Counted from the stretch's first letter, positions 1-47,907 are shown. The stretch: 64,000 bases of DNA from Schizochytrium sp. TIO01 (GCA_004764695.1 SMSO01000025.1:295102-359101); one strand, 5' to 3'. A program made the numbers and translations. The notes: generated by a model not told the origin, from the letters alone.

Positions 1-3000
1 GTCGCCGAGCCGAGGCCGTTTATGCAGCAAATGTTCGGTATAATCTAAAAATGGCTCACCTATTTGAAGCCACCTTTACTTTTGAAAAGGCGTTAAAGCA
101 TCACGAGGTCGCATACTTGGCATGCATTGAGCTCGCCACAAGAAAAATTGCGACCCATGTTGGCGCTGCAGAAGAGGAGTTTCTCTTTTACGAAACAGGT
201 ACCTATCCTGCAATGGAAATAAAGTCTCTCGCTGAATGGATTCATTTACGACTGTGTTACCTGAGACTTTTTTCGAGTCAGAGCACTAAAGCAATCCTTG
301 CTCAGTTCGATCGCCACATGGCCTCGTTTAGAAACCTAACCGGACCCAGTAGTCTTATCTTCCAGCATTGGATGTGGATGTCTCGCCAGCATACTCGTTT
401 TGCACAACTTATTCAAGAACTACGCACGGCCGTGTCAATGTCTGGATTGTCACCACTCGATAGAGCCAGACTTCAGGTTGCTTACCACCTCCGTCTCGCT
501 GCGCGATTTGCCGTCCAGCGCAGGGAGGCTGCTCAGATGCTTGGTATCTCTGGGCCCCATGCAGAAAGGACTGAGCAGCTAAAAGCCCAGGAACAACGTA
601 TGAGTGAGCAGCATCATGCCCGCATTGAACCAAGTTTGTACATCGGTGCCTATCCGGAAATAGTTGTAGAAGGTGCCGCTCCATTAGATTCCTCTGCGGC
701 ACATTCGCTCATTCAGTGCGCTATATATCTAGAGGAAGCAAAATGTGACCAAGGCGAAATTGCGTTGGACCTCTTACAACAGGTATTAGAGAAGTCTACG
801 GAGACGAACAAGGATGCACGAAGCGTGCGTCAGATCGCTGGAATTCGAGCTCGCATTGGCTGCGAGCTTGTTCAGCGTGGAGAGACCGAGCTCGCGATGA
901 AAGATCTGCTGCACGCTGCGCATGTTTTTAATCGTGAGCACTGGTTTACCCTTGCCGAACCTGTATTATGTGATATCATCAACTCGGCTGAAAAATTGAC
1001 ACCTGGTAATGCCACATTCGATATTGATGCAGTCTCAGAGCGTCGCAAAGTTATGCATAGTGCTCTTCGCCTTCTCTCGATGCGCAGGGTTCCCGCATCA
1101 CAGAAAGAAGATGTAACAAAGAAACTACTCAAGTGGCTAGGGAAACCGGTACGGCGTGCAGAAGACCCAAGCACACCAGATGGCGCGCGCCTGAAATTAG
1201 CTTTCTCGCTTGATGATCTTGAGGAACCCCCTATCCAATGGTTTGCCTGGTTCGATCAACGCGAAGCTGCCGTGGGGGACACGGTACAGCTTCATGTACG
1301 TATCCGATCCACATTCCATGTCGATACTCATTATCAAACACTTTGTGTCATCTTCAACCAATCCCGTTACGAGGTCACGCTCGGTGACAACATCCACTTT
1401 GCTTCCAACGAGGAGAAGATATTTCAAGTATCTGTGCAGCTTCATGACCTAGAGGATGCAAACAAAGATCATCAAAACCAGCAACAACATGCACAATTGG
1501 GGCAGAATCAGACAGGAATTGAGCCACAGCAAGGCGAAACTGCAATGGCAGCTTCCCCAACGGTTCCTAAAGCTGGAGTCCCACTCACGCCGCTGCGCTT
1601 GCAGCTTAAGCTCGTATCTGATAAAGCTGAAGGGTTAGGCTCCCAGGTCGAACCTCCACCCGGATATACGATGTTATCTGCTGTGTCTTTGTGGGCTTCG
1701 GCGTGCGAGACAGCATCCGCACCGTTGCATTCTAGCGGCACCGTACTAAATCTCATTAATAACACAGGCCCACAGCCAATCGAAGCAGCTTCACCAAGGC
1801 GAAACAAAGCTTCTATTTTAGATGCCCCCAATGAAGTACAAAACAAGTCAAAGCAACATGAAAGTGGGATTACCAAATCAACTCCCAAAGGTCGCTTACC
1901 TCGGACTTTGATCATTTATCCATTTGAAAGTGACGTGCAAATTTCGTTACAGCACGAAGGTTTTGCCTTAGTTGGTGAGATGTTTAGTCTTGAAGTTCAT
2001 TTGACAGCAGGGAAAAACGTTATTTCAGGTGGTCAATTGTTCGTGGCATGCGATCCTCCTCTACAATCGAAATCCACTCCCTTCTTTTTCAATGAGCAAG
2101 GCGAGCCGCTGACCCTTTCTAGTGAGAGTCTTCAGCCTGTTGAACCTTTGAAACACGATGTTCAGATGAATGCAGGAGGTCAGAGTATTGTCAGGCTTGC
2201 GTGCAGGTTTAGCTCATTGCCCTTTTCAGCTTCAGCTGCAGATGGCCGACGCCAAGCGCGTACCTGTATCGTTTCATTGGATTATGCACTTCCTCAAAGT
2301 GGAATCCAGGTACGTGCTTGCAAGTCTTTTGAAATTCCATGTTGCTTACCTTTTCAGACTCGGGTAAACTTAATTCCCCGCAACCCTCAACTGCCTAGCG
2401 CTCTGAGCGTCAATGCTCCTTGTACCGTAGATCTTGATCTCATGTGCCCCCGCGAACCTCAAATCGTCGAACGTATTCAGGTTGTTGATATTCGTGTTGA
2501 ACCTTCAGAATCTTGTGTTATCTCTAAAGAGACACGGTCCCCTTTACTCGCACCTCGTAAGGATGAAGGCACAGACAAGAGTCAAGCAACAACTTCGACA
2601 TCCATTCTCCCGGCACCTGTGACAATGCACGGGGGCGACAGGCTTTCTCTTGGTTTCGAGATTAGCACAAGTGCAGCTGGGGATAATACCACATTGGGTT
2701 ACGTTGCCGTAACATGGCGCCGACGAGAAGAAAAGCCAGATGCAACCATGTATGTTCCTTTGCCCAAGCTACGTGTCGAGCATACACAATTCTATTTTTC
2801 GTTGTCAACAAATCCGGAGAAAACAAGGCGTGTTGGTGAGGCTATGGTCGCTACCATAAATATCCAAAATGCCAGTGAGATTGCTCAGGAGCTTGACGTG
2901 CTCGTGGAAAAGAGCCCATACTTTTTCATGGCTGGCACCTACTTTACTACGCTCATTCTTGCACCAATGCAGTCTACACAGTTTAAGCTCAACCTTGTAC

Positions 3001-3113
3001 CGCTCCTGAGTGGTAATTTACAGCTTCCAAATGTCACAGTAGAGTCCAAACGTCTCAAGGCAAAGTACACTGTACCCTCGCCCACTGAGTCTATGATTTT
3101 TGTTGCCCCTTAA
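1..3113 (+). CDS. TRAPPC11: TRAPP complex subunit 11 (foie gras domain), 5' partial
   Basis: Homologue of TRAPPC11, a subunit of the TRAPPIII tethering complex acting in ER-to-Golgi traffic and autophagy. The N-terminal part carries the foie gras pattern: a helical stretch with MEIKSLAEWIHLRLCYLRLF, then a block with FRNLTGPSSLIFQHWMWMSRQH, which match the family's 'EIKTVAEFINYKIC ... AFEHHAWLSKQ' signature from memory. Helical repeats follow to about residue 330. The C-terminal half is beta-rich, as in the Gryzun-like part of the family. The reading frame is open from base 3 to the ATG at 51, and those 16 codons (ending VRYNLKMAHLFE) also look like family sequence. The ATG at 51 is therefore probably internal and the true start lies upstream of the window. 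About 1036 residues are visible; the human protein is about 1130. No intron is seen. The stop is TAA at 3111. Confidence 0.85.
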   Translation, partial: RRAEAVYAANVRYNLKMAHLFEATFTFEKALKHHEVAYLACIELATRKIATHVGAAEEEFLFYETGTYPAMEIKSLAEWIHLRLCYLRLFSSQSTKAILAQFDRHMASFRNLTGPSSLIFQHWMWMSRQHTRFAQLIQELRTAVSMSGLSPLDRARLQVAYHLRLAARFAVQRREAAQMLGISGPHAERTEQLKAQEQRMSEQHHARIEPSLYIGAYPEIVVEGAAPLDSSAAHSLIQCAIYLEEAKCDQGEIALDLLQQVLEKSTETNKDARSVRQIAGIRARIGCELVQRGETELAMKDLLHAAHVFNREHWFTLAEPVLCDIINSAEKLTPGNATFDIDAVSERRKVMHSALRLLSMRRVPASQKEDVTKKLLKWLGKPVRRAEDPSTPDGARLKLAFSLDDLEEPPIQWFAWFDQREAAVGDTVQLHVRIRSTFHVDTHYQTLCVIFNQSRYEVTLGDNIHFASNEEKIFQVSVQLHDLEDANKDHQNQQQHAQLGQNQTGIEPQQGETAMAASPTVPKAGVPLTPLRLQLKLVSDKAEGLGSQVEPPPGYTMLSAVSLWASACETASAPLHSSGTVLNLINNTGPQPIEAASPRRNKASILDAPNEVQNKSKQHESGITKSTPKGRLPRTLIIYPFESDVQISLQHEGFALVGEMFSLEVHLTAGKNVISGGQLFVACDPPLQSKSTPFFFNEQGEPLTLSSESLQPVEPLKHDVQMNAGGQSIVRLACRFSSLPFSASAADGRRQARTCIVSLDYALPQSGIQVRACKSFEIPCCLPFQTRVNLIPRNPQLPSALSVNAPCTVDLDLMCPREPQIVERIQVVDIRVEPSESCVISKETRSPLLAPRKDEGTDKSQATTSTSILPAPVTMHGGDRLSLGFEISTSAAGDNTTLGYVAVTWRRREEKPDATMYVPLPKLRVEHTQFYFSLSTNPEKTRRVGEAMVATINIQNASEIAQELDVLVEKSPYFFMAGTYFTTLILAPMQSTQFKLNLVPLLSGNLQLPNVTVESKRLKAKYTVPSPTESMIFVAP

Positions 3114-3358
3114 TATTGAGTCAAACAATGAGCATCACTATATGCATATTCTTGATCCCCCCTCGTCATTGCACTTGTGTTGATTTGACATGCAGATTAA
3201 TTTTTTGTTGTCCAGCCTAAAATATAGCTTTAGAGCCTGACATAGGAGAGCAAAACCACTTAGAGTCTGTAAGAAATAGAAGTAGGAACGACACATCATA
3301 CATAACATGTAGTTAAGAGTTATTTGAATATTTGGTCATTAAAAAGAGCTACGTTGGT

Positions 3359-5898
3359 TTACAAGTAATTCGACCTGTTTTTGCCTAATTTGGCATTTGC
3401 GTAAGTTGAAAGCAGGGCTACAAGTGGTTCTATTTCCTGACGTAGCTCAGTTGTGTGAAGAATGCCCTCACAGAGATCATCCACTTGGCGGCTCCAGTTC
3501 ATATAAGAATAGTCATTTGCCCGCTGTAATCTTAGAATATTCTTATAAACAGCAACAAGTTGCTCATAAGTGTGTCTCTGAAGTAAATCGTTGTCACGAA
3601 CCTTTTGTGCAGTAGCACGACGGCCAAGAACAATATCGTTCAGAATGCGACGGCAGTGCTGATCCAATTGGGCTCGAACCTCCTCCTCAATTTCATACAA
3701 GATTGTCTGAGGTAGGTCACGTGCAGAGCTCATAAGTGAAGAAAGATATGCTTCTTTGGCTCGCTCAAGCTTCATGTGGATCTCTCTCATAATGTTTTGC
3801 GCATCTGATGTGGAGTCTTGTCGAGAAAGGTGGCGCTGCGGCGCAGAATCATATGCAACACCCCAACCTGCTGGCTCAGACATAAAGGAAGGAGGAGGGC
3901 TCAACACAGATGGTGGAGGCTGGGACAATGGTGAACCGATTCGAAGCTGCTGTTGACCACTACCGCTGTCACTGCCCTTACTTTTACCTACGCCATTTGC
4001 TTCAGGCGAAACTGGGGGGGGCGCGACGGAGGGCGGTTGTCGGGTGGCAATTCGGTGACTGTGAGGAAACCTGGAATTGATCGCGGTGACGTACTAGAGA
4101 GAGAAACTTGACTTAGTTTGTTTTCGATTTCGCGGGAGTCAGAGTTTGAGAATTTAGACATTGAATATGTAGCGCTTGCGTGATCATAGAATTCGGGTTC
4201 AATCTCAGAATACTCTGACTTCATTCCCACTGCGTCAACAAAATCCTCCTCATTCTCAACAGCATCATCAAAAGACGAGGCGCTTCGTGACGGAGGCTGT
4301 GGGCGGGGTGATCTGGGTGGAGATGGACTTCTAAGCGGTGGGGATGATGCTTTGGGACTCATAGATTTACCCGAGCGTCGCGTGTATGTAGAATTGGTGT
4401 CGGGCATCGGTCCTGAAAGAGAGTCCCACTTGCCTCGAAGGGTTTTGCTCAAGATCTCTGCAGATGCGTCAGACTTGGAACCGCTCAACCTGGAGGACAC
4501 TACTGCCTGCACACTCTCAACCTCACGCGCCATTAGCCCAACAGCCCATTCACGAATCGTAGTTTCGCTTACATCAGGAAGTGAGTCACGCGTTGATTCA
4601 TTTTCCATGAGAGCACGTTTAATTGCATGGCACATCTCATCTAGACGGCGCTGTTGATGCAAATCTTTTCCAAGCTGATCGTGAGCAGCGGTAGCAGCAA
4701 AACCAAGTTCACGTAGTTTCTTGTGATAGGCAGACCGTGCCTTTTCAAACACTCCATGCATAGCCCGGTCACGTTTCTGTGTTTCCTCAAAAGTTTGAAA
4801 TGCTGATATACTTTGTGCACGGATATCATGGTTTTGAGCAACAGCTAAATGAAGAAGCTGCGAGACCTCGACGAGCGTTGAGCCAACTTCTGTCTCAGCA
4901 TCAGCAGTCAGCGGGACTGAGTTCTCATCAACCAAAGAGAGAAAACTTTCCTGCCGCCCAGAGAGTGCAGATGAATTGAACACATGTTTGGCCACCGACT
5001 CGACCTCATGCCATTTAAGGTATACTTGGGCGTCAGAACGAATAGAAGTAGCCGAGGACCGCTGGCTGGCGTTTTCCTTGGCCCACGAGGTGCGGATGGA
5101 ACGTTGCACAATGCTCTCCACAACAGACCTCACGCGAATAAAAAACTTCAGATCTTCTGTATCATAGTATTCCTCTAAAAAGCGAGCGAATACCTCAACG
5201 TCAATACGGTGGCGTCGGTGTGTATGCACACTGAGTACCATATCCCAAGCAACTTGGTCAACGATCTGCCGCAAGCCATAACGTTTAGTGAGATGGTCCA
5301 TGACAAAAACAGGGAATACGCGAAGCTCCTCACGATCATATTTGCTATTCATGCTAAGACGGTCATCATAAACGTCGTTCACGAGACCCATGAGCCATTT
5401 AAGTGACCGTGGCTTGGGCTCAAGTCTATCGCGCATTTCAATCAAAGAGCAAAATTTAGAGTACGTTGAAAAATCCTCCACCTCTCCTGAAGACCTGAAG
5501 GCTTTCAGCATGCGTCTAGTTTCTTGAGACGGTCTTGAACCTGCCAAAATAGTTTCAGGGCCACTTCTGCGGCTTCGAGGCGACACCATCTGAGCTCTTG
5601 CGTCGACACTTGCTGCCGCAAAGCTGGACTCTGAGAAAGAAGGCATTCTGTGTCCTCCGTTAGGTCCAATTTTCGCAGCTGCAGCGGCTTTAGATTTAAG
5701 GTCATTCGAGAAGTACTCGCGCTCAGCATCGTCCTCGTCGTCGACGCCACCGCTGCTCCCACGTAGGAACGCGATATCCGCTAGATAAGACGCGCCGTCA
5801 TCCGAGCGCACGAATGTGATTTCATTTTCAGCTAGAAAAGAGAGATAATCTTCGCGCTCTGCGGCGTCTTCCACGCCGCCCAGTTCCACTACGACCAT
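3359..5898 (-). CDS. Conserved coiled-coil/disordered protein, broken by a frameshift at a G8 run
   Basis: Two ORFs, 5898-3988 (636 codons) and a downstream frame to 3359, are best read as one gene of about 846 residues. The first frame ends in a proline-rich stretch just after a run of eight G (4014-4021, plus strand). If one extra C were present there on the coding strand, the frame would continue as PPPVSPEANGVGKSKG into the second ORF with no stop. The second ORF has no ATG of its own at its start. The best-conserved-looking part is residues 130-260, with DRLSMNSKYDREELRVFPVF, a KRYGLRQIVDQVAWDM block and RFLEEYYDTEDLKFFIRVRS. I recall similar blocks in stramenopile and other flagellate proteins, some annotated as TSNAXIP1-like, but cannot verify this. 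The rest is coiled coil and serine/proline-rich linker. The start ATG at 5898 is the only one near the 5' end. Function is unknown. Confidence 0.65.
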
Positions 5899-31488: not shown

Positions 31489-31653
31489 CTTCTTTAGCCT
31501 TCCACGAGCCGCTGCTTCTACTGCTGATGCCTCTGTTTCTGATCGCGCGCAAAGGATGAGATACCTGGTTTCCGGTTTGCTCTTCGCAGCTATTCACTCA
31601 TTTCTTTCTATCCACTGCATCGATGAGGATTCATTCGTCTTCATTTTCTTCCC

Positions 31654-31710
31654 TCACTAATCACTAATCAGTCAATCACTAATCAGTCAATCACTCAATC
31701 GATCGATCAA
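31654..31710. repeat. Short tandem repeats of CACTAATCAGTCAAT type
   Basis: The unit recurs about three times with small variations and ends in CGATCGATC. Confidence 0.75.
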
Positions 31711-32324
31711 TTTTTAAATAGGAAAAATAAAAATTAAACCAAACTAAACTAAACCCAAAAAGCAGAAAGGAAAACCACAGCCAAATAATGAAAACTCAGC
31801 ATCATCAAATGGCGATCGTTCGGAGCGGTGCTGATTATGTCCTGATCAGAGCAGCATTCTTCTCTTCGCATTCCTCCTAAGTAGCTAGATGGCAGGTACT
31901 TAGAGAAAGAAGGAGATCACCGATCGAGTGTTCTTCCTTTCGGTTTCCTTTTGGTTTCCTTTTCGAGCGGAACTTTTATTTGTTTCGGAAACTTCAAACA
32001 CCGATCCATCAAAAACAGAAAAACACCTTTTAACCTTTTTTTCCCGCTTTTTTTTAAAACTACGAATAAAAAACAAAATTAAAAACCATGTGGATTACTA
32101 TTAACACTACCAGTACCTCCAATTATTTATACCTCAAGTTGTGAATTTTTCTTGAACAAAATCATTTGATTCATTTCAAAATAAAACTCCTTTCTACAGG
32201 AAGTTACTGTTCACTTAAAGTATACCATAGGACTCCTCCATTTATATCGATGTTTCTATAACCAAACCGACGAGTATCTAAGGTAATAGCTATCAAAAGG
32301 TCTACTAAGGCCTTTGTTTACATG

Positions 32325-32332
32325 TGATTCAC
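32325..32332. repeat. Left target-site duplication TGATTCAC
   Basis: Eight bases identical to 38569-38576 flank the terminal inverted repeats directly on both sides. Confidence 0.9.
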
Positions 32333-32352
32333 GGCTCGTCTGCCATGCTGAC
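32333..32352 (+). repeat. Left terminal inverted repeat
   Basis: 20 bp, matching the reverse complement of the right end at 19 of 20 positions; the one difference is G versus A at position 6. Confidence 0.9.
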
Positions 32353-32423
32353 AAAAGTCTCTCTTCCAAAAGAGCAAAAAACTCGCGCTTAGAACGCCTA
32401 TGAATTAATATGGGAGACTCATT

Positions 32424-32469
32424 GGTGTTCTAGAACAGTGTTCTCAAGGGTGTTCTGGAACGGTGTTCT
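32424..32469. repeat. Subterminal direct repeats inside the left transposon end
   Basis: Two 21-bp copies (32424-32444 and 32449-32469) differ at two positions. Each has the inverted core GTTCTRGAAC flanked by GTGTTCT. Repeats of this kind next to a TIR are typical transposase binding sites; that role is inferred. Confidence 0.75.
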
Positions 32470-32497
32470 GTTCTTAGTTCTTATATATTATATGAGT

Positions 32498-35400
32498 CTA
32501 GCTAACAGTAACGGCGACTTGACTTGAAAACTCAGTCGCTGAAATCTGAGGCGCTTGAGCTTGACTTTGACTTGACATTGCTTGGTTGGGATTTTTGATC
32601 GCAGCTAAGATTAAATTTAAATGCGTAGACCCCCTTGCGTCAGATCTGGCTGCCCAATAGACCTGTAAATATGAAATATTGTAAACCCTCCAGATTCCAC
32701 GAACAATGTCCATCGCAAATGCCCTACGATAAACTTCATTCATATGTTCATCTTGAATTTCCTGGTGAGCAACTTCTTCAGCTACATCTCCACGCCATAA
32801 AGTATACATTAGAGTAGATACGTGATATCCGCAATCCACACCGTTTTTTTGGTTGCCTCGCCTAATCTCGATCTCCCAGTCTTCAGCTCCAAAAAGACGG
32901 ATGGCATCGCCAAATACTTTCATCACGTGGCTCGGTTCATGCAAGGTACTTAATGGGTCGTAAAAGACAACACGCGCTTGCCTTTGGTTAAAATAAAGAA
33001 GCTGCCAATGACTTCCTGTACAAAACGGTAGCATAACATATTCAATGACATCTGGAATATAGATTGACCTCGTTGAGGAGCTGTCCTTTTGAAAATGGCC
33101 TCTTGGTGTGGCATTTGCAATCGCATTGCATACAGACGATATAAACAAATCGTGTCGGTCATCTACCGAACTTGTGAGGAATTGAAGTGCGGTGCTAGGT
33201 ACAAATGCGGTTCCGTGACACTTCTTTCTTTCTGCAGGCTTCATAACGCGATTTTCTTCGCAGCAGGTAGCACACCATGCATCCATTGCATCCCCTTGCA
33301 TCCATGATAAAGGTTCCCCGAAAGATTCGGGGTTAGTTGATTCGGAGCATGGCAAGTTCCCATGAGAGTCTAAGAACAGCCTTTGACACATGCCAAACTC
33401 TAGAAACGTATGATTCATAGTGATGTTGTTTGAATGAACAAAGTGTTTTCCACTTGTAAAAACAGAGTGCTTGGGAGAAATGGAGCTCTTCAGAAGACTG
33501 AACACCTTTGCTGAAGCTTTCCAGAACGCTGTGCATTTTGAGTTAAACGTTCGCACAGGTCCTCCTTGTCTTGGTTGCATTTTGACACCGCGTACATTTC
33601 CAACCTTGGGGACATCTACAGTATGTTCTTTAGGGGCTATCGCTTGAGCCCTTCTTTTTTCAGACCCGAAAAAGTCTGTGGGTGGTAAACTGTCCAGGGC
33701 AGAAATTGTTGCTTCGCAGGTCTGAAGTTTGCACTCAGCGCCAAATGGCGTGGGGTGCCCTTCTCTTGGTGCATAGCAAGACTGACAGTACTTGCACTTG
33801 CTCAGATTTTCAGGAGCTCGCCAGATGCTCTTTCGTTTACTTTTCAAATGCTTGAATTGGAAAAAGGTTTGTTGAGGTGCAAGGGGGAAGTTCTTCGTCA
33901 TAATTGACCTCAACTCTGCTGTGTCAAATCGTTCCAGAGAGGGATGCCGAGAGAGGAGTTCTTCGTTTATGATGTTCGCTTCCAGATTGCAACGTGTTGA
34001 ATAGTCCAGCTCTCTGATACTTTCCAATAGATGCAAGGGATGCACCAAAGCACCATCTGCAGTAACAGGTACGTCGACCAATGGCTCAGTCATGTGCTCT
34101 AACTTGGACGCTAGCATTAGTTTTCGATTTTTGGCAGAAATGCTATCTCTCTGATTCAGAAAATCTGCATATTGCCTGAGTAGGAACGCCGTCTTTGGTT
34201 TCAGATATTCCCTCAAGTCGCCCGGATGAGAGATCTGCACGGAATCAAGCTTCGGAAGGAAAAGACCGTCAAGATCCCCTGCAGGACAAGCGTATCGATT
34301 CCACAACTGTGCAAAGCTTTCGAAGCTGTTAGACAGAATGGGCGCAGCTTTTCGATTGAAGTTTTTGGTTTTAAGAAGATATAAATAAAAGTCTTGCTCC
34401 ACTTTGTCCTGCTGTTCGGGCTTACCTTTCATTTTGAATGGGCAAGGCGTGCTAGCTCCTATGAGGTCCTTGGGGCGAGGTCTGGCCCAACCAGAGCCTT
34501 TTATGCCGCAAGTTGTATAAGATGCCGACAGTACTTGCTGCTGCTTCTTCCTACATTCCACCGTTTGCTCGGCATCATCCCCACTATTTTCGCTGAGAAC
34601 TCTCTCCCACGAGACGTCATCAGTCAGAGAGGTTCCAGATCGATTTGGCAAAGGATCTTCACAGAATGCAATCCAACGGGTACGGTCAGGCCTTGCCTCT
34701 TCGGCAGGGAACAAGCCTTTTTTTACCCTTGGCGCAGAAGCAAGCTGCGCTTTTGGAAGATTTGTAATATTTTTTCGAACAGAACATCCAATGTGCAGAT
34801 GAATATCAGCGTTTGAGCTACCAACCACTAATTCTGATATTGGGTCATCCTCGTGTTCAGGCGGTTCTAACTGTACGCACGATATTTTGATCCTTTCTTT
34901 AAATTCCTCAGAATCAGAGTCTGTACTTATACAATCTTCAAGAATTTCTACACAAGTTGAAAGGACTCTCTGAACACCAATATCACCTTGAGGTTCAGGC
35001 TTGTCACCGTTCTCTCCTTTAGTGAAAAGGCTGCCGTTTACTAGTATATTCATTGCTATCAGGCGCAAGCTGATGTGGTCTTTCAATTTTTTATCGATGC
35101 CAGCCTCGTCGAGGACTGATCGATCTGTTTCGGTGGGTACCCCTCCTCCCGTTAGTTTTCGAAGAACTTTCTGGAGGTAACTTATGGCTTTTCTTTTATG
35201 TTCTGGTCGTGCGAGAGCTTTTGCAAAGGCAAATATCACAGCAATGGCTTGCTCTACGGCATGCGCCAGTGTTGAGTTCTCCGTGCTGTCGAAGAAAATC
35301 GGCACCACAGTGGCTCGCGTCCTCATTATATGATTAGACTCCAAAACAGAACCAACACTTGGCATCATGCTGAATCCCATATGTAAGTCATGAGAAACGC

Positions 35401-38032
35401 ACAAAGGCAGTCGTGCATCTGGATAAGGGAGCTCATTATGCTCGATTTTACCATTGAACGCATCATTGACGAGGGAGTTTATCGTGAGGTGGTGGCTGAA
35501 TGGTTGGTGAATTAAATACGAAGGTAAACCTTTTATCTCAATCATTCTGGAACGATTGTATTTAGCAACCACTTTGGTGAGTAGCGCGTCAGCACGAACA
35601 ATACCAATGGTAGCACTTGCAACAGCCTGGTTCAACATACGATGGAACACCTCATTTGCATTAGTACCTCTATTTCCCACAAGATGATTTTTGCCATTGA
35701 TTTTAGTCTGTAGAACGAGACCTGGAGGGTCGCTCAAGCAGCCCTTATGAACATGTTCAAAAAGGCCTGCAATATACTTGTCTAGGCCAACCCCTGTGGC
35801 GGTCTTAGATAAAAATAATCCATGCCGAAACCCATTTGGATAGGGTCCGAAATGTTCTACACAAGCGTTACCAGATCTTGGTTTGCAACGCTCTCGTACG
35901 CGATGAAGCAGGTCAGCACTGAGATCCATCTTCGAGTTCATAATATAGTGAGTCTTAAAAACTTCCATGATGCGCTTATATAGAACCTCTGGTTGTGGGA
36001 TTCGGGTTTCAACAGCTTGATTGATAAGCCGATCTTTTGTGAAGTTGCTCTTACTCTTATGTTCCTGTTGAACCTGCTTCACTCGCTTGTGGTCGCGCTG
36101 AAGAACAGCGTTTGCTAATGCAGTCATGAATGCAGTACGAGGTGCTCGGCTTTCGTTGCTGCTTTTCACCATTATTTGCTCCCAACGCTTGAGCCAGTGA
36201 AACAAATCGAGCTTGATGGGGACTCCCTTGAAAATTTGTGATAGGCATTTATTTAATTTTCCACAACATGTATCTGTCCAAATACATTCAGGCCGGTAAT
36301 CCCGACCATGCATTTCCTGGCGTAGCTTGACGAATCGTCCTAAAGCTTCTCTTATTTCCCTCTCGTTCTCACTGTTCGCCAACCCACAATAGAATATAAT
36401 CTGGTTGTGTTCGTTACTGATTGTGAGTAGGGCTTGATATGGCTGGTATATCCTAAAGGATTTGTCTTGGTCTTGGAATCGAAGTTTACAGCGCTCGGGA
36501 AACCGGAACGTGCAATCGATAGCGATATACCTGGCGCTGTATGACGCAATTTCGCGAAGCAAAGGTCTTGCCTCTCCTTTAAACTGGTCAATACATAATT
36601 CGTCGAGAAATTTGGAGCTTAATCGATATCCGTTGTACTCCATGTCGAAGTTGCCAAAATTTTCAGGAGCCGTGATTGATTTCTCTTGCGTTTCTTCTTC
36701 ATTTGAGCACGATGCTGATTGATTTGTCTGGTCGACCTGTTTGCTCGCTTGCTCAGCTGCTTGCTCGGCAGATTCTTTATTGATCTTGTCTCGGGCAAGT
36801 CGCTCGTTGCGCTGCTGGATAACCATTCGAGCATACTCCACGCTCAGTAAGTCCTTTTCTCGGAGTATCTGGTTGATTGTAGTCTCCAAAAGTTCTTTCC
36901 AACCCTCTATAACCCTCGTTCGGTCCCTCTCACGTCGAGCAGTGCTGAGTTGCTTGATTTTCTCGCCGTTTTTTGTATCTAGGATGTTCTTAAGCTCATG
37001 GAAGACATCAACAACTGTAGAGATATTGAGAGCAGACTTTAGGATTTTAATCTTTTTTTCTCCCAAACTCTTGATTTGCTTTAAATCAAATTCCAGTAAT
37101 TCACGAGCAGCCGTCTCCTTTCTCAAAACCTCAGCAGAACATTTTTCGGGCTGGAATTGAATCTTAGATTTGAGCGTATTTGTCGAGTTCACTGCTTGCT
37201 TTTGAAAAAAACTTGGGATTGTATTGGGGCCAGCTTCATCGAAGCGCCGAGTGTGTTCTCCTAAGCTTGATGCATAGTAAAAGTACTCTAGACGATTATG
37301 GTTCCGTACCTGAGCCTCATTGAAAGCATCTGCAGCCCACGCGGGACTTTTCAACCACAATTGGCTGAGACGTTGGCTAACCTCTGTTTCAATCCCGTGG
37401 CGTGGGGTTAAGGTCAGGCCAAAGCGTATCCGTACGTCAGCAGGGCACAAACGAAGAACATCCTCACTTGTATTGCGAAACTCTTTATTGCACTTTTTAC
37501 ATTTATACTTTCGAGCCACGAGAAACCAATTTGCAGTCGCACCAGCAATCTCTCGGTAATTTGGTGCCCAGAAGCCATCGTCACCAGAGACGCTGACAAG
37601 AGGTTCACCCAAATGCGCTTTTTGGTTGCAGTATGGACATGGCATGCGATTGTTCATCGACGCATACATTTTTGCTGGATGCCATAACCCAACGCTGCGC
37701 TGGTGAAAGTACTCTGGTGCAATTTGTTGACCTCTTTTTACTTTCGGCAGTTTGGGTTTCTGGAGCCAAGTGATTGTCCCATCAGGAACAATGTCGTACA
37801 GGGACTGGCATGTTTTGATATCCATTTTATCAAGTGTGTCTTTGCAGCTGTCGATAAATTTTTGTTGGATTAAGGTGATCGTAGTCTCGCGCTTCTCCTC
37901 ATCTACATTAGCGCTTTCATTTAAGCCTTCCAGATCCTTTCTGATATCCTCATGACTCAAGGATTCCTGATCATTGTCCCCGGGAGTGGCTGTCGCCTGG
38001 CGAAGCTTGCAACGTGATGAAAATTGCATCAT
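32498..38032 (-). CDS. DDE-type transposase with zinc ribbon and C-terminal Ulp1-like cysteine protease
   Basis: 1844 residues, ATG at 38032 (a second at 38029). The N-terminal zinc ribbon has C132-x2-C135 and C178-x2-C181. A coiled-coil segment runs about 285-455. The presumed RNase-H-like catalytic core has D506 in RYIAIDCTFRF, D587 in CIWTDTCCG followed by IKLDLFHWLKRW (609-617), and E794 in GNRGTNANEVFHRMLNQ. A long middle region of unknown role follows. The C-terminus is a C48 (Ulp1/SENP-type) protease with H1675 in GSHWQLLYF, D1692 in YDPL, Q1728 and C1734 in NGVDCGYHV. All four protease positions and the three acidic residues are intact. It would cut and paste the element carrying it; the protease may process the transposase or remove SUMO-like modifiers. 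Fusions of Ulp1 domains to transposases are known from several plant and protist DNA transposons. The zinc-ribbon/core pairing resembles DUF6729 proteins from memory only. Confidence 0.85.
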   Translation of the reverse strand: MMQFSSRCKLRQATATPGDNDQESLSHEDIRKDLEGLNESANVDEEKRETTITLIQQKFIDSCKDTLDKMDIKTCQSLYDIVPDGTITWLQKPKLPKVKRGQQIAPEYFHQRSVGLWHPAKMYASMNNRMPCPYCNQKAHLGEPLVSVSGDDGFWAPNYREIAGATANWFLVARKYKCKKCNKEFRNTSEDVLRLCPADVRIRFGLTLTPRHGIETEVSQRLSQLWLKSPAWAADAFNEAQVRNHNRLEYFYYASSLGEHTRRFDEAGPNTIPSFFQKQAVNSTNTLKSKIQFQPEKCSAEVLRKETAARELLEFDLKQIKSLGEKKIKILKSALNISTVVDVFHELKNILDTKNGEKIKQLSTARRERDRTRVIEGWKELLETTINQILREKDLLSVEYARMVIQQRNERLARDKINKESAEQAAEQASKQVDQTNQSASCSNEEETQEKSITAPENFGNFDMEYNGYRLSSKFLDELCIDQFKGEARPLLREIASYSARYIAIDCTFRFPERCKLRFQDQDKSFRIYQPYQALLTISNEHNQIIFYCGLANSENEREIREALGRFVKLRQEMHGRDYRPECIWTDTCCGKLNKCLSQIFKGVPIKLDLFHWLKRWEQIMVKSSNESRAPRTAFMTALANAVLQRDHKRVKQVQQEHKSKSNFTKDRLINQAVETRIPQPEVLYKRIMEVFKTHYIMNSKMDLSADLLHRVRERCKPRSGNACVEHFGPYPNGFRHGLFLSKTATGVGLDKYIAGLFEHVHKGCLSDPPGLVLQTKINGKNHLVGNRGTNANEVFHRMLNQAVASATIGIVRADALLTKVVAKYNRSRMIEIKGLPSYLIHQPFSHHLTINSLVNDAFNGKIEHNELPYPDARLPLCVSHDLHMGFSMMPSVGSVLESNHIMRTRATVVPIFFDSTENSTLAHAVEQAIAVIFAFAKALARPEHKRKAISYLQKVLRKLTGGGVPTETDRSVLDEAGIDKKLKDHISLRLIAMNILVNGSLFTKGENGDKPEPQGDIGVQRVLSTCVEILEDCISTDSDSEEFKERIKISCVQLEPPEHEDDPISELVVGSSNADIHLHIGCSVRKNITNLPKAQLASAPRVKKGLFPAEEARPDRTRWIAFCEDPLPNRSGTSLTDDVSWERVLSENSGDDAEQTVECRKKQQQVLSASYTTCGIKGSGWARPRPKDLIGASTPCPFKMKGKPEQQDKVEQDFYLYLLKTKNFNRKAAPILSNSFESFAQLWNRYACPAGDLDGLFLPKLDSVQISHPGDLREYLKPKTAFLLRQYADFLNQRDSISAKNRKLMLASKLEHMTEPLVDVPVTADGALVHPLHLLESIRELDYSTRCNLEANIINEELLSRHPSLERFDTAELRSIMTKNFPLAPQQTFFQFKHLKSKRKSIWRAPENLSKCKYCQSCYAPREGHPTPFGAECKLQTCEATISALDSLPPTDFFGSEKRRAQAIAPKEHTVDVPKVGNVRGVKMQPRQGGPVRTFNSKCTAFWKASAKVFSLLKSSISPKHSVFTSGKHFVHSNNITMNHTFLEFGMCQRLFLDSHGNLPCSESTNPESFGEPLSWMQGDAMDAWCATCCEENRVMKPAERKKCHGTAFVPSTALQFLTSSVDDRHDLFISSVCNAIANATPRGHFQKDSSSTRSIYIPDVIEYVMLPFCTGSHWQLLYFNQRQARVVFYDPLSTLHEPSHVMKVFGDAIRLFGAEDWEIEIRRGNQKNGVDCGYHVSTLMYTLWRGDVAEEVAHQEIQDEHMNEVYRRAFAMDIVRGIWRVYNISYLQVYWAARSDARGSTHLNLILAAIKNPNQAMSSQSQAQAPQISATEFSSQVAVTVS

Positions 38033-38548
38033 TTTCGTGTTTGATGTTTACCTCGTTGTTGAGTTTCGCTACCTCAAAGTATCATTTAATATGCCCTGAT
38101 CATCCAGTGAATATTTCCAAGTCTCTTTGCACATGTATTCGAGCCCAAGGAATACGAGCTTAACCACCATCAAAGTCCAGTATTAAATTGCATCAGTGAA
38201 ACGTCGGCGTAGTATTCGTTGAGGTGGATGTGCCAGTTTACCAGAAATATGTAACATCCTTGTGAGGAGACCCAGTGGTGATACACTTAATTATTTTCAG
38301 TGGAATTAGAGGAAGATTATCACTGAGTGTTCTTGCTAAAACCAGTAACAAAATTCATAAAGAGTTTTAAATTAAAAGCTAAATGTCATGCCGCGTCCCA
38401 CAGTTAAAGCCATATATCTTATAAAATGCATATCAAAAAACTCGCCAACACAATGATTTTGTGAGGAAAAGTAGAATTTCCCCCCAGATTTTCGCCTGTT
38501 CTCTCCTATGTTCTCTCCCCCCCCCGCGAGTTTTTTTTTTGAGCTCAC

Positions 38549-38568
38549 GTCAGCATGGCAGATGAGCC
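38549..38568 (-). repeat. Right terminal inverted repeat
   Basis: Reverse complement of the left TIR with a single mismatch. It is followed inward by a T10 run and CGCGAGT, mirroring the left end. Confidence 0.9.
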
Positions 38569-38576
38569 TGATTCAC
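38569..38576. repeat. Right target-site duplication TGATTCAC
   Basis: Identical to 32325-32332 and directly adjacent to the right TIR. Confidence 0.9.
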
Positions 38577-39821
38577 TATTACTATTAGCAACACTACTAC
38601 TACTACTATGACGACGTATAGGCATGCCTATCTATCATCTATCTATTCAGCGTATATACATGGATCCAGATCTACTTAGTGCCGAGCTAGCATAAACGCT
38701 AATCAAGGCACCGACCCATTGCAGATCTTGGATGGAACATACGAAAGAGAACGGAACGCCCGTTCAGGGCACCCTACCAATGGTATTAAATAACTCTACA
38801 CTAGCATTGACCCAGCCGTTCTGTTCTCTCTGAAATACCTTGCACCCTGTTCTTGTTCTGTTCTTTCTTTGTTGGGATAGTTAATAATGTATACCTGACT
38901 GGCCTCTATATGGTCGACGTCCATCAGTTAGTTAGAACTGATTAGTTAGTTAGTCAGCTAGTGACTACCTAGGTACATAGGTACGTGATACTTAGCTACC
39001 TCCATGATCTTCTTCTTCTTTTTCTTCTTCTTCTTCGGCGAGTGCGTAGAAAGTGGGAGAAAGCTGGAGCAAAGATGCGAAGGAGACTGAAATACTGCAG
39101 ACGAAGGCAGTTTGATGCATGATATTCGTTTATTAGTTTGTTGATGATGAATAGCAACTAACTTGACGTAACCGCGTTTTCTTCTATGCTAGTTTTTCTT
39201 TGAATAAATTAATGTAAAAGAATGTTTACTTTATAGATTGTAATAGCAATAATAAACCCAGTAGATACTATCTTTTTAAAAGAAAAGAAAAAGAAGTTTA
39301 CCACTACTTCATTACTCATTTTATAATTTTAATTAAATTAAGATATCTTTTAAGCTCTAAACATTTTTACTTGTTTTATTATTATTTTTATTATTTTTTA
39401 AGTACTATGTCAACGCTAAGTACATACTAGCAGGTAATCTAGACATCAATATTTAGTATGGAAAATATGCGCACAAAGTACTGCCATTCGAATAAATGGA
39501 CAGATGTCATCAAGTTTCCCCCTCTCCTGCATTTCCCCATACATTAGTCACCTGCTTCCAGAGGTCTTGGAGAACTTGTATCTAGAGCTGAAGCGCAAGA
39601 AAGCTATTGTGGAGCTGTAGCAAAGGATAGAAGCAGAGATCTCGCGATGATCCCAGATAGGCGTCTGCTTGCCTGCTGCTTGGACCTCCTGGCCGCCTGA
39701 CTGCCTTCAGGGATGCCTGCCTGTGTGGCCAGCTGGCTGTTGTTTTGGCTGCGTGGCGTGGCATTTCTCCGCGCAGACGGAAGAGACGGATGCGATGGTG
39801 TTTTTCCCGTGGTCTCTTTCA

Positions 39822-39895
39822 TCTTTGTTTCTTTGTTTCTTTGTTTCTTTGTTTCTTTGTTTCTTTGTTTCTTTATTTCTTGTTTCTTTGTTTCT
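39822..39895. repeat. (CTTTGTTT)n microsatellite
   Basis: Alternating TTTC and TTTG blocks run for about 70 bases with two small irregularities near 39872 and 39880. Confidence 0.85.
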
Positions 39896-40253
39896 AGCGG
39901 TTTGCTAAGTACACACGTAATGAGCTGGTAGAGCAATTATCATTGTATTCTATGGGTGTTCTTTTCTTGTCATTGTTCTTGTTAGAGTGAACTTTAAAGT
40001 ATTATAATTATCAATAGAACGTTTGTTTTGGAGTTCCTGCGTATGTACGTACTAGATTTCGCGTAATTTCGTGAGGTCTCCGTTTCAGGTTGCGGTTTGA
40101 TTGACTGGCGCAAAAACAGCATTGCAAATACGGCTTTATCCAAAACCGTGACGAGGTGCATGCAGGCTTGAGGGCGAATGTTGCTCACTAATTTCACACG
40201 ATTGGATCCCGTGTTTTCTGGTTCCCAGCAGTAATTTCCAACGAAGGACTACT

Positions 40254-40281
40254 ACATTTAACATTTAACATTTAACATTTA
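40254..40281. repeat. (ACATTTA)4 tandem repeat
   Basis: Four consecutive copies of a 7-bp unit, followed by a partial ACATTA and A/T-rich sequence. Confidence 0.85.
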
Positions 40282-42850
40282 ACATTAAAATTAAATTTAA
40301 AAGAAAACATAGAAAAGAAGAAAGGAAAGAAGAAAGAAATGAACGAATTCGAAACACCAACAAGATTTGACATTCTGCTGAGACGCTCGATGAATATGAT
40401 AGGCACTCTGTTGATTTCTTTGGTCTTAGCGTATCGATTAAACGAGGCCTCTATGACGGTTTTAATTCTATGCCTTGATTTTGATATGCTTTTTGGTTTG
40501 CTCTGAGTGTTCAGATTGATTCATTTCAATTTCACTCATCACAATCCTCCTGAACACTGACCAGGACAAAATGAAAGAAAAGTCACTCATGAAGTGCAGA
40601 CCATTAAATAAATAAAAGTTGTGGTGACAGATGATAATATCTTCTCGTACTCTGTTGGTCGAGTGGTAAAGAAGGTACATACTTTTGAAGGCGCAAATTC
40701 TCAGACAAACATTCACCTGTTTCTAGCAGGGTTGTCCAGAAAAGTGCAGGAGACATCATCGATAATTCACAAGAGGAACAATATTTATCTCTTTTTTCCA
40801 TAAGTAGAGCAGAACAAATGTCTTTTTAGTGCGTTTTTGCGATTTCTATATAGTCTGTTGTTCTAAAAACAAACTCAGATCAAAGCAAGTCCCTCGTGCA
40901 AATCAAATTGACTAACGTGCTGTACACCTTTGTTTCATAATTGTCAAGGGTTCAACAATCACCTTTCATCGGTGTCTTATGTAGTTCCATTCTCATTTTT
41001 GTGCTATGGTATGCCATGCCATGATTTTTTAAAAATTTGTTTTTAAAGCATACCTTAGGGTACACCAATGCCAAGAACCCTACGGCTATGAATTACGATC
41101 CGTTCACACCTATTATAGAGGCAAATATAAGAAAGGAACCTGGTGATAGCGCAGGGGGTCAACGTGGATCAACTGCGTATGTTGGGCGGTGTCCGGATGG
41201 GTTCTCACTTTATCATATTGATAAATAAGAGTCTTGGTCAATGACTGCAAAATAAAATCCTCAAGATAAGAATTATTCCTCAGGTTTCTGCAGAGTCTTC
41301 ATAGGTAGAATCAATCATGGTCTCTACCATAAGTTGATGCATGGTCAGCTTGCGAATCCAAAACTAGAGAGATAAAATAGCAAAGTATCTGTAAACAACC
41401 TCGGAGACGCCATGAAAGAACGATGGAGTACCTACCAAGCTTTCACGCGGTATTTCAGTATTAGTTTTAATCAAGGTGCCAGGCGGACTAAAAATGTAAT
41501 ATAGTCCAATGCTCATGCTTATATAGTATTCTGAAGAAAAGGAAAAGTAACTTTGAAAGGAAAGAAAATCAACAAAGAACGGACACCGCCAGGACATCGT
41601 ATTATTCGTAAGTGTGACGATGTTTAGAAATGTGCATCGCGAGACTAATTCATCTAGATATACAAACTAGGATGTGTGAGGACAAATCACACACACAAAT
41701 ATTATTCAATTTTAGGAGTCAAGAGGCCTGCGCAATGGCTTTTTAAGACTCTGAGCAGCCATCGCACATTTATTGAGAAGCTCAAAACTTGAGTCCTCTC
41801 GCACAGAAAATTGATAAAACATTTACAGACCATTTTGCTTCGTTGTGGAGAGTACAGCGGGGATGAGGGGGCCAGTCTCATTTGCTTTGTGCTGCGGTAC
41901 CTTAGACTCTATGAATGTAAAAAAAGATTATGCAATTTAAGCAAGTGCTGCAACGTTGGCTCTCGTGAGCCTGCCCGCACCGCCGCAGTCATTTTAGGCA
42001 CCACAACTGTAAAATTCTGTGTACTGGAGTGCGCAGGACAGTTTCCGTATTCGGCAATATAAGCAAGAGTCGGGAGATGTACCGAAAGACAAGCAACAGA
42101 AATGGATGGAAGTAATTGCGTTGCCATGCTTGGTATGTGTCTTGGACAACCTTCTCGTCTATATTTACATGACATTAGCCGTATGTGGTTTGTCCGAGTG
42201 GGCGGTTTTAAAACGAGAAGGACTATGTAGGAATCTTTTCTGTTTTTTTGGAGCTCTTTAATCGGGATTCATTCCGCAAGTACTGAAAGTGACTTAAGTC
42301 AAATCAGCGTGAAGTTTATGATGCGTCTGTTGAGGAGAACAAACGCCATATGATAATGCAGATATTCTTTTTCATAATGTAAACCTCAGTGGACACACAT
42401 GATAGGATGGTAGGTATAAATAAAGGAGTCGTGTTAAAATAAACATCAAGAAACATGGAATCTTTATAATATTGTGTTACATGGTTTGATTATTTTGCCA
42501 TTCCACACCATCGCCATCGTCATAAAGAATGGGATAGTAAGTATACTATTTAGAACTCCATAAATCAAATGACATGGATTTACAATATGATCTAAATTGA
42601 ACATCAGAAAAGGGCTGGCTCACATTCAAGGCGGTCAGCATGGAGTATAAAGTAGAACTTTCACGGGATCCCGGTGTGTAAATTGCAAGCTAGCAGCAGA
42701 AGCTACGTAGCAAACTTGCGAATCAAGCAGCTGTTTTGAACCAGAAGAAAAATGAGCATAGAAATCAGAATAACGTTCATTCCCATGTGCACCTGCTCTT
42801 CCGTATGATTCAAGGTTGCTTGCACTTCGCCCAACGCATTTAATCGCAAC

Positions 42851-43327
42851 TCAAGGATTATTATTAGTGCTTAGCATTGTACAAGGCTCCTCGCCTGTCG
42901 CACTTATCCGGTTCATGTACGACTTACGAACACGAGTTCTGCATGTCCTGAAAAGGTTCAAAGATGTTGCTTCGAACTTTTTGCAAGCAAGATACCGCAT
43001 AGCTTCGTCTTCGTTAAGACAGTCTTGTGAAAACAGAGCATTCTCCTTCTTGTCCATGTTTGAGAACTCGAACAGATCAAGTTCGCTCTCCAGAAACTCA
43101 TACTTTGGTTCGCGAACAATATTCTCTGCACTCCAGCGACGCTGTTCTTCCGTGCCGTGAAGATCATCGTCTTCGAAGCTCAATGGTGCTCGAAGTGATC
43201 GGCCTGAAATAAGATCAGACACGGTTTGTACCGGTCCTAGCATTACTTCTGAAGCTTCTCCACATACCAGAAGGGTATGCCCTACAATGAAGGCGACTAC
43301 AATTGTGAATCTCTCGACACCTCCCAT
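42851..43327 (-). CDS. Putative small secreted or type I membrane protein
   Basis: 158 residues from the ATG at 43327, which sits in a strong context (GCCATGGG). The longer frame begins only with TTG. An N-terminal hydrophobic stretch, MGGVERFTIVVAFIVGHTLL followed by VCGEA, fits a signal peptide with cleavage near residue 24. The mature part is acidic in the middle (EFLESELDLFEFSNMDKKE) and then basic, with four cysteines in short charged contexts (QDCLN, LACKK, RTCRT, EPCTM). There is no second membrane span. No family is recognised. Protein-like composition, the start context and the signal peptide support a real gene; lack of homology is the weakness. Confidence 0.5.
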   Translation of the reverse strand: MGGVERFTIVVAFIVGHTLLVCGEASEVMLGPVQTVSDLISGRSLRAPLSFEDDDLHGTEEQRRWSAENIVREPKYEFLESELDLFEFSNMDKKENALFSQDCLNEDEAMRYLACKKFEATSLNLFRTCRTRVRKSYMNRISATGEEPCTMLSTNNNP

Positions 43328-46300
43328 GGCAAAGTTCCCTTTCACTGTTCTGCTTGTGTCCGAGGCGTCCAACGCTGTGCGGTCTCACTTTTTGCTCAAA
43401 CAATTTAGTCGTCCTGCGACTGCTATGAGCTGATTCCCTCTAACCGCTCGTCCTGGTTCGAATTAGGTTTTGGATGGAGCTAATATTTTTCACTGGGCAA
43501 ATTCCAGGTTAGTACCACTCAGCTACGCAATACTCTAGTCTACTGGTGTCTTATTCTTAAGCAGGTTTTCCATCATAAAAGGCAAGCTTCAGCCTTTTCC
43601 TTCGATAACCATTCTATGACAACATTGGATGCAAAGAATGTGCAGCTCGTGTTCTTCAATGCGAGACATCGTTCATTGCAACTCATAATCTTGGAGTCTT
43701 TCATTGCTTCAGAGGTGACACAAGTTTTCACCAGCCAAAATATTACAGAACCCGCTATCGCTTCATGAGAGATAACTTACTCAGCCGGACAAGCGAGAGT
43801 GAGGACCTCGAATTAATTGTACAACACAGGGACGAAGAGGCATTTTGCACCCCCGTGAGTTGAAGAGTGTAGAACATCAGCTTTGTCTTGGAGATAGTGA
43901 AAATAGTAAGCGTATGTACCTGTACCTACTTTGGCGTTAGTATTCATATATTGAATTACCTTGCCTTGGCAAAAACGAAGAACTACTTACTCGGCCGCTT
44001 GCAGGCGAGGAGAAACGAAGACTCAGCTTGGATACTTCTTGTGCAGCAAACAAACTATTCACCTTGCATGGACAGGGTGTCCGCAAGTACCAGAACAAGT
44101 TGGCATGCAACGATAATTCTCTAAATTGTGCTTTTCTTCTCTATTTCCTCTTTCTGCTTTTAGTCTTTACTCTTTAGTCTTTCTTTCTTTCTATCTTGTA
44201 TTTAGTTAGTTATTTAGTCATTTTTCTGAAGAAGGAAAAAAACGATCAAATTTAATTTTTTTGTTCTTTTTTTTTTATGATCAATCAAGAAAATATTGAT
44301 GAAGCCAAACCAGGAATGAATCTCATTGAGGGAATGGCTCGCCGCAACATAAGGTTCTGTGAAATGCACTTAACGCAGACGGGGCTTCGAAACTACTGAT
44401 CCACGTGTATTTGAATGGAATCCGGCCTTCGATCCAAGAACGATAGCATCATAATTGACCAACTCTTCCAGTAGAACTAGGCCTTCTAAACTTCTAGGCA
44501 ACTATTAGATGCTACAGAAAATAATGAAACCAAAAAATGACAATCGTGTACAATGATTGATCACTTATGTAGGTAGCTATTTCAAAACTCGCTTTCACTT
44601 TCTTGCCGTTGCTTATGCTTTTCTTTCTTGGTTTCATGCAGCTGCTGTAGTACGTCGTTCACAAGACTAAATCACAGCGGAAGATGCATGAAGATGTCCG
44701 TCACTGATGTCGGCTTACCATGGGTGGCACAGCTGACGTCAAAGAACACTACCACAAGCACACTTTAAGGAGACGCAGTTTTGAAAGAGGTCATAGATCG
44801 ATAAGTTCACTTTTCAGGGTCCGAGGTCATTAGCAAATACATCAACACATCCCAAGGTCAAACTCTGATTGCGGATCCATTGGTCTAGGTTTTCAAGAAC
44901 GGATATCAGTAGATGCAGCAATTCCGACAAAGCTCGCAAGCATGTAAGCAATGTACAAATAAAACAACAAAACCAAACTAGTCTTACTGTCCTTCGAACA
45001 AGAGCCGAGCAGAGTCCAGGATTATGAAAACGCCTCAGGTTTTTGAGAAGCTGTATTTTTTGTCCCCAAAGCTCGGACAGGAAAAATAAAAACAAAGCAT
45101 CAAAGAAAAATCTAAGGATTCGGGTGTGGTGAAAATTGCCGTAGTTGATTGCTACAGCTCAAACCTGTCATATACCCTTACCGACTCAGTGTGAACCGCA
45201 AAGTTGCGAGCTCTCAACCCGAATATGAAGATAATATATATTTATAACCTTTGAAAACCTGAAACTAGACCATTTCAGAACTCATAACTTGGTTGAACTC
45301 TGTTCTGTATCTTCACCTAGACCCACATTTGTCAAATAGAAATATCACATGTATTGCTGCATATAGTCTCAAGCTGAGCACGATTGAATGCTCGATGGTG
45401 GACAGAATTTGCAAAAGGACTTTTTTTATTTTTTTAAAAATTGTTTTTAAAAATAAATATTTAAAAGACATATATTATAAATAATAATAGTAACAATGAA
45501 AACGAAATGGCAATGTAGATTATATCAAATGGTGAAATGAATCAGCTGGAGTAACCTATTGCCTCCACGAAGCCGTTTATGGAAATTGAAGAGGTCTAGT
45601 AGATTGACGCTGATGCCCAATGTGACCAAACAAGAAAGCAAGTGTTAGTGCTAGTGCTAATCTAACGTTTGATCTCCTCCTCCTCCAAAGATCAAACGTT
45701 GTTATGATTGGCTTCGTTTATTTCATTTATTAGATACCTAGCCTTATTCAGTATCTTTGTCGCCGCCTTAAAATATCGCATAATGCTATCTTGGAGTAGG
45801 ACAGCCCCAAGTTATTAATTCACCACTCTTCAGGCCCATTTCCCCTAGTTTGACCTCGAGGGAATATTGTTCTGTCCAGGCAGGTTTTAGGGATCAAATC
45901 TCCAAGAAGTGAACATCATCGACAGCGATCATATAAACACAGCCGAGCTCATTGTAGCGTTATCTAATATAATCCATTAGAATTTAATTCGATACCTGAT
46001 ATGTGGGGGTTCAAACTCATGAGGAAAAACGTCTTCGCTTGAGGAATTGGAGCTAGCTACTCATAGAAAGTATGCGCACGCCTGACAAAGTAGCCTGACA
46101 AAGTAGAATCAATGTGCGAATCGTGAATAATTTAAACTTAGAAGGCCCCAGGTAGTCTACATCTCACGGCTATCGATATCTTCAGGTTGAAAATATTTAT
46201 TTATTTTCCCATCAATCCTAGCCTGAGGCCTAAGCATACTACTACAGACGACATGATGCACAAAAGGTTGGGATTTTACTTCTAGATGATGAGCACGGAA

Positions 46301-47907
46301 TCGCGCTCAAGGTAAACCCTCGAGATGAGGTAACATTTATACTGCGAGGAAGTAGCAAACACTCATCCTGGCCTGAACCTCTCTTTGGAGGTGCAAATAT
46401 TGGGCTCTACTTGTCGCTGGCCTATAAGATCATCCCCAAGACTCTATAACGGTAATACAAAGTGGGGTTTTATATGCTTTAGATGTAAATGAGGATGCTG
46501 GGAGGTGCACTTTTCACCTGGAATGCCTAAACCTAGCGCGCGGGAGGGGGGGGGGGGGCATCCAGAAATGTGGTAGTTTTGTGCAAAGCTCTGAATAAAC
46601 TATATAAGGCTGCATTTCACTTTCTTCTTCCGAGTAGACAATCTAAAATGGGCTAATGTTGCTATTAGTGCGTGCAAGGGTCTAGAGTGCCTAAACTATG
46701 GGGCAAGCTCGTGCACACATTTTTTGATCAGTGAATTTTACCGGCCAAGTTATTTTAAAGTTTATCTTCAACCTTTCGAGACATCGAATTTCCTCAGTTT
46801 AACGTGTAACGTTTCTGGTCGTTGAAAACTAAGATGCTTGTTATGGCCAATCGACTATAAGTGAAGACCATGTAATTACAGAAAATCGCAATTAGGTTTA
46901 CAATTCAATCAGCATTTCTGGGCTTGCATTTTATTTGTGCAACCGTGATTCGTCTAATACCAATATGTTTAGCCAGAGTCGCGCAGAAACTTAGGCTAAT
47001 TCCCTTTTAAAATGCGTTTAAAGATAACTTTACGTTTTGCATTTACTTTTCGGCCCTTCCAGTTCTGAGCATGGGCTTTCAATCCTCCACAGCACTGTAT
47101 AAACTTGTGCACCCATTCACTGAAACTCAGGTTTCCTTGTCAAACTCGGCGCCTCAAACAAAGTAAAGCAAAAAGCATTCTCATCAAGCTATTCGTAGAC
47201 TTGGTATCTCCCAGCGTGCTTTATGATCTCAAAATGTGGGATTATCTTGGCTGCATATATGTATGCTCTTCCTCCCCTAGACATTTGAAGAGCCAGGATG
47301 TAGCCAAGCTACCAATCCTCATTTCAACACCCTTTATTCGCATTCATTTATCATAGCAAGCAGACAATCAATGAAGCAAGCAAACAAGCCTTGATCAACA
47401 ACCCGATAGCTAGACGGTTAGCCTCCCGAATAAAGTCCCGACAAATCTAGCGAGACTATCACCAAAACGCAACTCACGATCTCAAAGTCAAGTCAATATC
47501 TCGGCTAAAGCGCTGCGTTCCAACCCGCCCCTCCTCAAAAGAACACCGCGCCTTGCCACTCCTATACCTTTATAACCAATCCCTACTACCACCTGTTCTC
47601 TTCTTGAAGTTGCCATCAGTCTTAAAGAGTCTTATAGTTTCGATATATAAGCCACCTCATAATGACGCTTTATGTGATTTGGCGGCGCTGACCACGTTTA
47701 GCCTACTTGTTATGATGCCTTCAACTGAGTTATAGGATCTTTAAAGTGACTTATCAGGAAATAACCAATAGTAGAGTGAAGTCACAAGTAGGATATAGCG
47801 CGGTGGTCACTGTGCGGGCTTTGAGGAGCGAGCTGCTGCTGACTCAGCAGATTGCCAAAGTAGTCCGCGCTCGCGAGCAGCGGAAGCAAGCACCTCTCCG
47901 CGCCGCG
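43328..47907. other. Gene-poor A/T-rich interval of 4.6 kb
   Basis: No gene could be established. Protein-like frames without ATG overlap at 43480-43860; one contains CKECAARVLQCETSFIATHN and the other DAKNVQLVFFNARHRSLQLI, so at most one can be real. Other contents are T-rich tracts near 44260, a perfect 12-bp hairpin at 45664-45700, a G13 run at 46546-46558, and the leader of NAA35 at the right end. The NAA35 frame is open upstream to a GTG at 47746. Confidence 0.5.
45664..45700. repeat. Perfect 12-bp inverted repeat (hairpin)
   Basis: AACGTTTGATCT and its exact reverse complement AGATCAAACGTT are separated by 13 pyrimidine-rich bases. It could be a small hairpin in RNA or a footprint of a mobile element; no function can be assigned. 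Confidence 0.8.

Follow-up and report, generated by a model that had tools for sequence, protein, structure and literature searches.

The element described here is very probably a TIR DNA transposon that is autonomous, has moved very recently and encodes an 1844-aa DDE transposase of the MULE/IS256-like RNase-H branch. It spans positions 32333-38568 (6236 bp) of the window, a stretch of 64,000 nucleotides from Schizochytrium sp. TIO01 that corresponds to C24:295102-359101 in the 64.06-Mb assembly of 37 contigs searched in this study. The GC content of the window is about 45%, and its ORFs are long and intron-poor. The element sits in a gene-poor stretch of ~16 kb (31500-47900) flanked by an Hpt-domain gene and a NatC-subunit gene. 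After the element, this stretch contains only one other ORF of at least 100 aa (42851-43327), together with several short tandem repeats, including an array of the 8-bp unit TCTTTGTT at 39822-39895.

Both ends of the element are defined to the nucleotide. The target duplication (TSD) TGATTCAC at 32325-32332 is repeated exactly at 38569-38576. The left TIR, GGCTCGTCTGCCATGCTGAC (32333-32352, plus strand), lies on the 3′ side of the gene, and the right TIR (38549-38568, minus strand), the complement of GGCTCGTCTGCCATGCTGAC with one mismatch, lies on the 5′ side, with 19 of the 20 positions of each repeat matching. The preliminary description had given the same exact ends, 8-bp TSD and 20-bp TIRs with a single mismatch, all of which are confirmed. 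Just inside both TIRs, a 12-bp motif, AAAAAACTCGCG, is present in inverted orientation (32376-32387 on the plus strand, with its exact inverted copy at 38525-38536 on the minus strand). A second copy of the subterminal motif, CAAAAAACTCGC, is located at 38434-38445 (plus strand), and a short 12/13-bp subterminal tandem repeat of GGTGTTCTGAAC-like units, whose role is presumptive, is found at 32424-32470 (plus strand). Motifs related to AAAAAACTCGCG also adjoin the TIR in several old derivatives of the element, and AAAAAACTCGCG may represent a putative transposase-binding or end-recognition site. In a random 64-kb window, chance would produce such a TIR pair flanked by identical 8-mers about 2e-6 times, and a chance origin of the ends is excluded because the same ends recur with five other 8-bp duplications at five other loci. 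As in class II TIR elements, six copies thus share the same ends and carry six different perfect 8-bp TSDs, among which no obvious sequence preference of the insertion sites is apparent.

A translated search of the genome revealed five full-length matches with 100% protein identity, distributed over four contigs (C4, C13, C33, and C24 twice). Trimmed at the TIRs, each copy is 6236 bp in length with 0 differences among all five, and their TSDs are all perfect, 8 bp long and different from one another (ACCAAGTG, TATGTGTG, TGATTCAC, CTTTGCTC, and ATAAGTCT). All ten flanks are unique, with each joined-flank query finding its own locus only, which indicates that the five copies were inserted separately and did not arise by segmental duplication. 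The 0 changes in 31,180 copy-bases limit the divergence accumulated after the copies separated to ~1e-4 substitutions per site (95% upper limit), an identity-based age that carries the caveat of homogenisation by assembly polishing or gene conversion. Zero differences over 5 x 6236 bp are extreme, and might mean that the copies are not young and were made identical by gene conversion or by the consensus of an assembler or polisher. We consider this very unlikely, since older copies in the same genome retain 0.3-10% divergence and deletions of their own; polishing in particular is disfavoured because these older copies, expected to be touched too, stay divergent. That the five copies are recent independent insertions, and that the element moved very recently, is strongly supported, and the earlier suggestion of an active or recently active element is upheld in its second part. 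Joined flanks of the six copies, used as queries, found no empty site within the genome. Neither an empty site nor an excision footprint was found, which we count against the reading of an autonomous and recently mobile element.

The sixth copy with a perfect 8-bp TSD (CTTCAATA) is internally deleted. It is 2073 bp in length (C34:3980596-3982668) and lacks element positions 814-4962, while its surviving parts are 95.7-97.6% identical to the element. Its left flank is inside another repeat that the right flank does not continue. Having lost most of the gene, this copy would most simply have moved in trans. Truncation or rearrangement marks the older copies (C6:575792-581749, C6:2579803, C25:37583, and C13:6212910), and right-end fragments, of which there are tens, show 67-93% identity. 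TIR sites with three or fewer mismatches were identified 45 times in the genome versus 2 times for a reversed control pattern. These many right-end fragments and TIR sites indicate that the family is long established in this genome. The TSDs of three older TIR-paired derivatives were sought and not recovered. A TIR variant, GGCACATCTGCCATGCTGAC, is common to several short derivatives (C4:1477477, C24:2537788, C30:8638206, and C30:9261592), which possibly constitute a separate MITE-like subfamily. The mobility proposed in the preliminary description would leave other copies in the genome, and in addition to the window copy we found four further identical full copies, a non-autonomous copy that has its own perfect TSD, and numerous older fragments.

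The transposase is encoded by a single ORF on the minus strand (32498-38032, ATG to stop), which is identical in the five copies and is the intact frame of 1844 codons reported before; no other ORF of at least 80 aa was found inside the element. Two domains of the window protein pass the Pfam cutoffs: an N-terminal DUF6729 zinc ribbon (residues 88-221; 37370-37771, minus strand; PF20499, E 9e-9) and a C-terminal Peptidase_C48/Ulp1 domain (residues 1663-1773; 32714-33046, minus strand; PF02902, E 8e-9). A search of the protein against NCBIfam gave no match. Cysteines C132, C135, C178, and C181 of the ribbon are invariant in the window protein and in two families that are 31% and 25% identical to it. 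The C48 domain aligns weakly to Ulp1/SENP chains, and its tetrad of H1675, D1692, Q1728, and C1734 is intact and invariant across three families. A putative CCHC zinc knuckle (C1416-C1419-H1426-C1434; 33731-33787, minus strand), unmatched in the Pfam search, is invariant in the three long aligned proteins. Compared with diverged copies carrying tens of changes, the dN/dS values are 0.48, 0.28, and 0.41, which fits a functional transposase lineage under selection compared with decaying copies; the values for two nearly identical truncated copies are based on too few changes to be informative.

The proposed catalytic core, with D506, D587, and E795, covers residues 506 to 827 (35552-36517, minus strand). 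Because AlphaFold modelled the entire core (residues 436-980) too poorly for use (mean pLDDT 39.5), the assignment of the fold is based on a model of residues 466-640, built from five sequences (mean pLDDT 68, pTM 0.62). This predicted structure has the strand order of RNase H; D506 lies on the first strand, and D587 comes directly after the strand that follows a long helix. Compared by VIA-align, it matches the transposase of ISCth4, which we take to be a member of the IS256 family, across 124 residues (rmsd 4.9) with a Z of 8.7 that is barely at the level where Z exceeds a mere common arrangement, and it matches the retroviral core of SIV integrase across 81 residues (Z 8.7, rmsd 2.5). Among prokaryotes, IS256 corresponds to MULE (PMC5718144). 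Since retroviral integrases tie with ISCth4, these matches are firm support for the fold but only moderate support for an affinity with MULE/IS256. Residues 466-640 are thus predicted to adopt an RNase-H fold in which each of the two aspartates is at the strand expected for it. The zinc ribbon, DDE-like core and Ulp1 protease recognized in the preliminary description are, taken together, corroborated by Pfam, by the fold match and by conserved residues. A BFVD search with the core fragment yielded nothing at or below an E of 0.001; the third-best viral match, O92526 of Bracoviriform inaniti (544 aa), with a TM of 0.46 and a non-significant E of 0.011, may be a related transposase that a wasp virus has acquired.

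E795 is the least certain member of the proposed D506-D587-E795 triad and was placed by motif conservation only. It sits in RGTNANEVFHRMLN, and the E of the equivalent motif is kept in the related loci L062 and L065. A far more divergent DUF6729 protein, C6:1108300-1113700, also keeps it, within RGTNQLENFWRHLR; in the core of this protein LDKCC and LDNAHLISR pair with WTDTCC and LDLFHWLKR of the window protein, and hhalign aligned the two cores, as a single pair, with E 1e-4 and a probability of 57%. The third acid is not fixed, the position being occupied by K in L061/L063 and by L in L064. In a low-confidence model, the stretch from the LDLFH motif to E795 is long and mostly helical, as would suit the insertion domain of an aberrant hAT-like element with an all-helical insertion before E, and 8 bp is the usual hAT TSD length (PMC12730594). 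Such an origin is nevertheless very improbable, given that no hAT dimerisation profile was matched at E up to 10, that no BED finger was found, and that the MULE profile is a better fit for the LDLFHW motif and for the spacing of the two D residues. A core of the MULE/IS256-like branch is the reading that we prefer.

The DUF6729-core-C48 layout, with the protease tetrad, recurs in this genome in at least two much-diverged families, whose protein identity is 25-31%. Both L061 and L062 carry DUF6729, the core and C48, with the DUF6729 match of L061 falling under the curated cutoff. Compared with the element, the L061/L063 and L062/L065 families have few copies, and L061/L063 differs in the K that replaces E795. 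L061 contains an intact frame of 1912 codons (L061:2272-8007, C24:917271-923006; 31% identity) with K at the equivalent of E795, and L063 is a degraded relative with 95% DNA identity to L061 and likewise K; L061 is possibly a catalytically altered or domesticated copy. One end of the L061 family was identified at about L061:8206, and its partner terminus was sought and not found. L067 (L067:142-4929, C6:1108441-1113228) has a stop-to-stop frame of 1596 codons with DUF6729, a very divergent core and no match to C48 in the frame, and is assigned to a different DUF6729 transposase-like family. A further DUF6729 match over cutoff, in a frame of 541 codons (C24:5370472-5370990), was missed by the search with the window protein. 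A canonical match to the MULE profile was found only once in the genome, at C4:672008-672262, in an open frame of 901 codons. Scans of IMG/VR with the full alignment and with the core alignment revealed no relatives.

Cut-and-paste is the default mode of movement for this kind of element, and the element described here probably moves in the same way. The transposase would probably recognize the 20-bp ends and the subterminal AAAACTCGCG motifs, perhaps by means of the DUF6729 zinc ribbon. The D506-D587-E795 site, as proposed from sequence and model, would then cut the element out, and the element would be inserted, with a stagger of 8 bp, at sites that show no obvious sequence preference. The Ulp1 domain appears to serve the element because its tetrad is intact across divergent families. 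Our preferred guess is that this cysteine protease strips SUMO, or a modifier like it, either from the transposase or from proteins of host repair or silencing at the site, and self-processing of the long protein is our second. If active, the element might be a candidate tool for insertional mutagenesis in this protist lineage.

The superfamily placement of the element leans towards MULE without a full match. Its likeness to MULE includes the TIRs, the order of the D, D, and H motifs, and the ISCth4 fold match across 124 residues. Its TSD of 8 bp (six copies) and TIR of 20 bp fall within the ranges of 8-11 bp and 14-500 bp, respectively, given for MULE (PMC6446971). The element differs from MULE in the size of its transposase (1844 aa). 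The MULE profile touches the element core with E 0.011 and 16.5 bits, compared with a Pfam cutoff of 27.6, and this is one of four cores, as the three related cores gave no match. Of the Pfam profiles proposed for checking in the preliminary description, DUF6729 and C48 were recovered over cutoff, whereas the MULE match was weak and sub-cutoff and KDZ was unmatched.

The KDZ (Kyakuja-Dileera-Zisupton) superfamily resembles the element in its very large zinc-bearing transposases, which can be longer than 1300 aa and occur in the stramenopile Ectocarpus (PMC12477816), and in the 8-bp TSDs of Zisupton and a Dileera element (PMC12730594). Membership in KDZ is nonetheless unlikely: PF18758 was unmatched in the protein and in the whole genome at thresholds at which no control genome matched either, so that this negative carries limited weight, no CxC cysteine-cluster profile was found at E up to 10 and DUF6729 is present instead, and among transposase-core profiles MULE alone touches this core. 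The passages covered of a survey of 50 MULE lineages do not mention DUF6729, and Ulp1 is absent from its main text. Within the portions of the literature searched, no paper naming DUF6729 and no combination of DUF6729, such a core and Ulp1 was found, and an undescribed family fits when judged against that literature. A separate undescribed lineage at the superfamily level, uniting DUF6729, a MULE-like core and Ulp1 with 8-bp TSDs and GGC...GCC ends, is a tentative possibility that we regard as somewhat improbable; the element would then be a member with exactly defined ends that has moved very recently, and C6:1108300-1113700 an outlying branch. Because its core leans towards MULE/IS256 but its Pfam match is sub-threshold, we describe the element as MULE-related without classing it among the MULEs.

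For a group of large transposases that is only tentatively placed with respect to MULE and KDZ, the element supplies precisely defined ends, an intact gene and a non-autonomous partner of natural origin. Ulp1 domains are known in some Mutators of plants, hydra and lancelet (PMC2836005). The element is also similar to Ginger1, in which a single protein likewise combines a DDE transposase with an Ulp1 domain at its C-terminus (PMC2836005); Ginger1 differs in its Gypsy-type integrase, H2C2 finger and GPY/F motif, whereas Pfam finds no integrase profile here. Fusions to Ulp1 or OTU recur in Mutator, CACTA and Ginger1 elements (PMC2836005, PMC2528002), and the element described here offers a test case for the role of these recurrent protease fusions in transposition.
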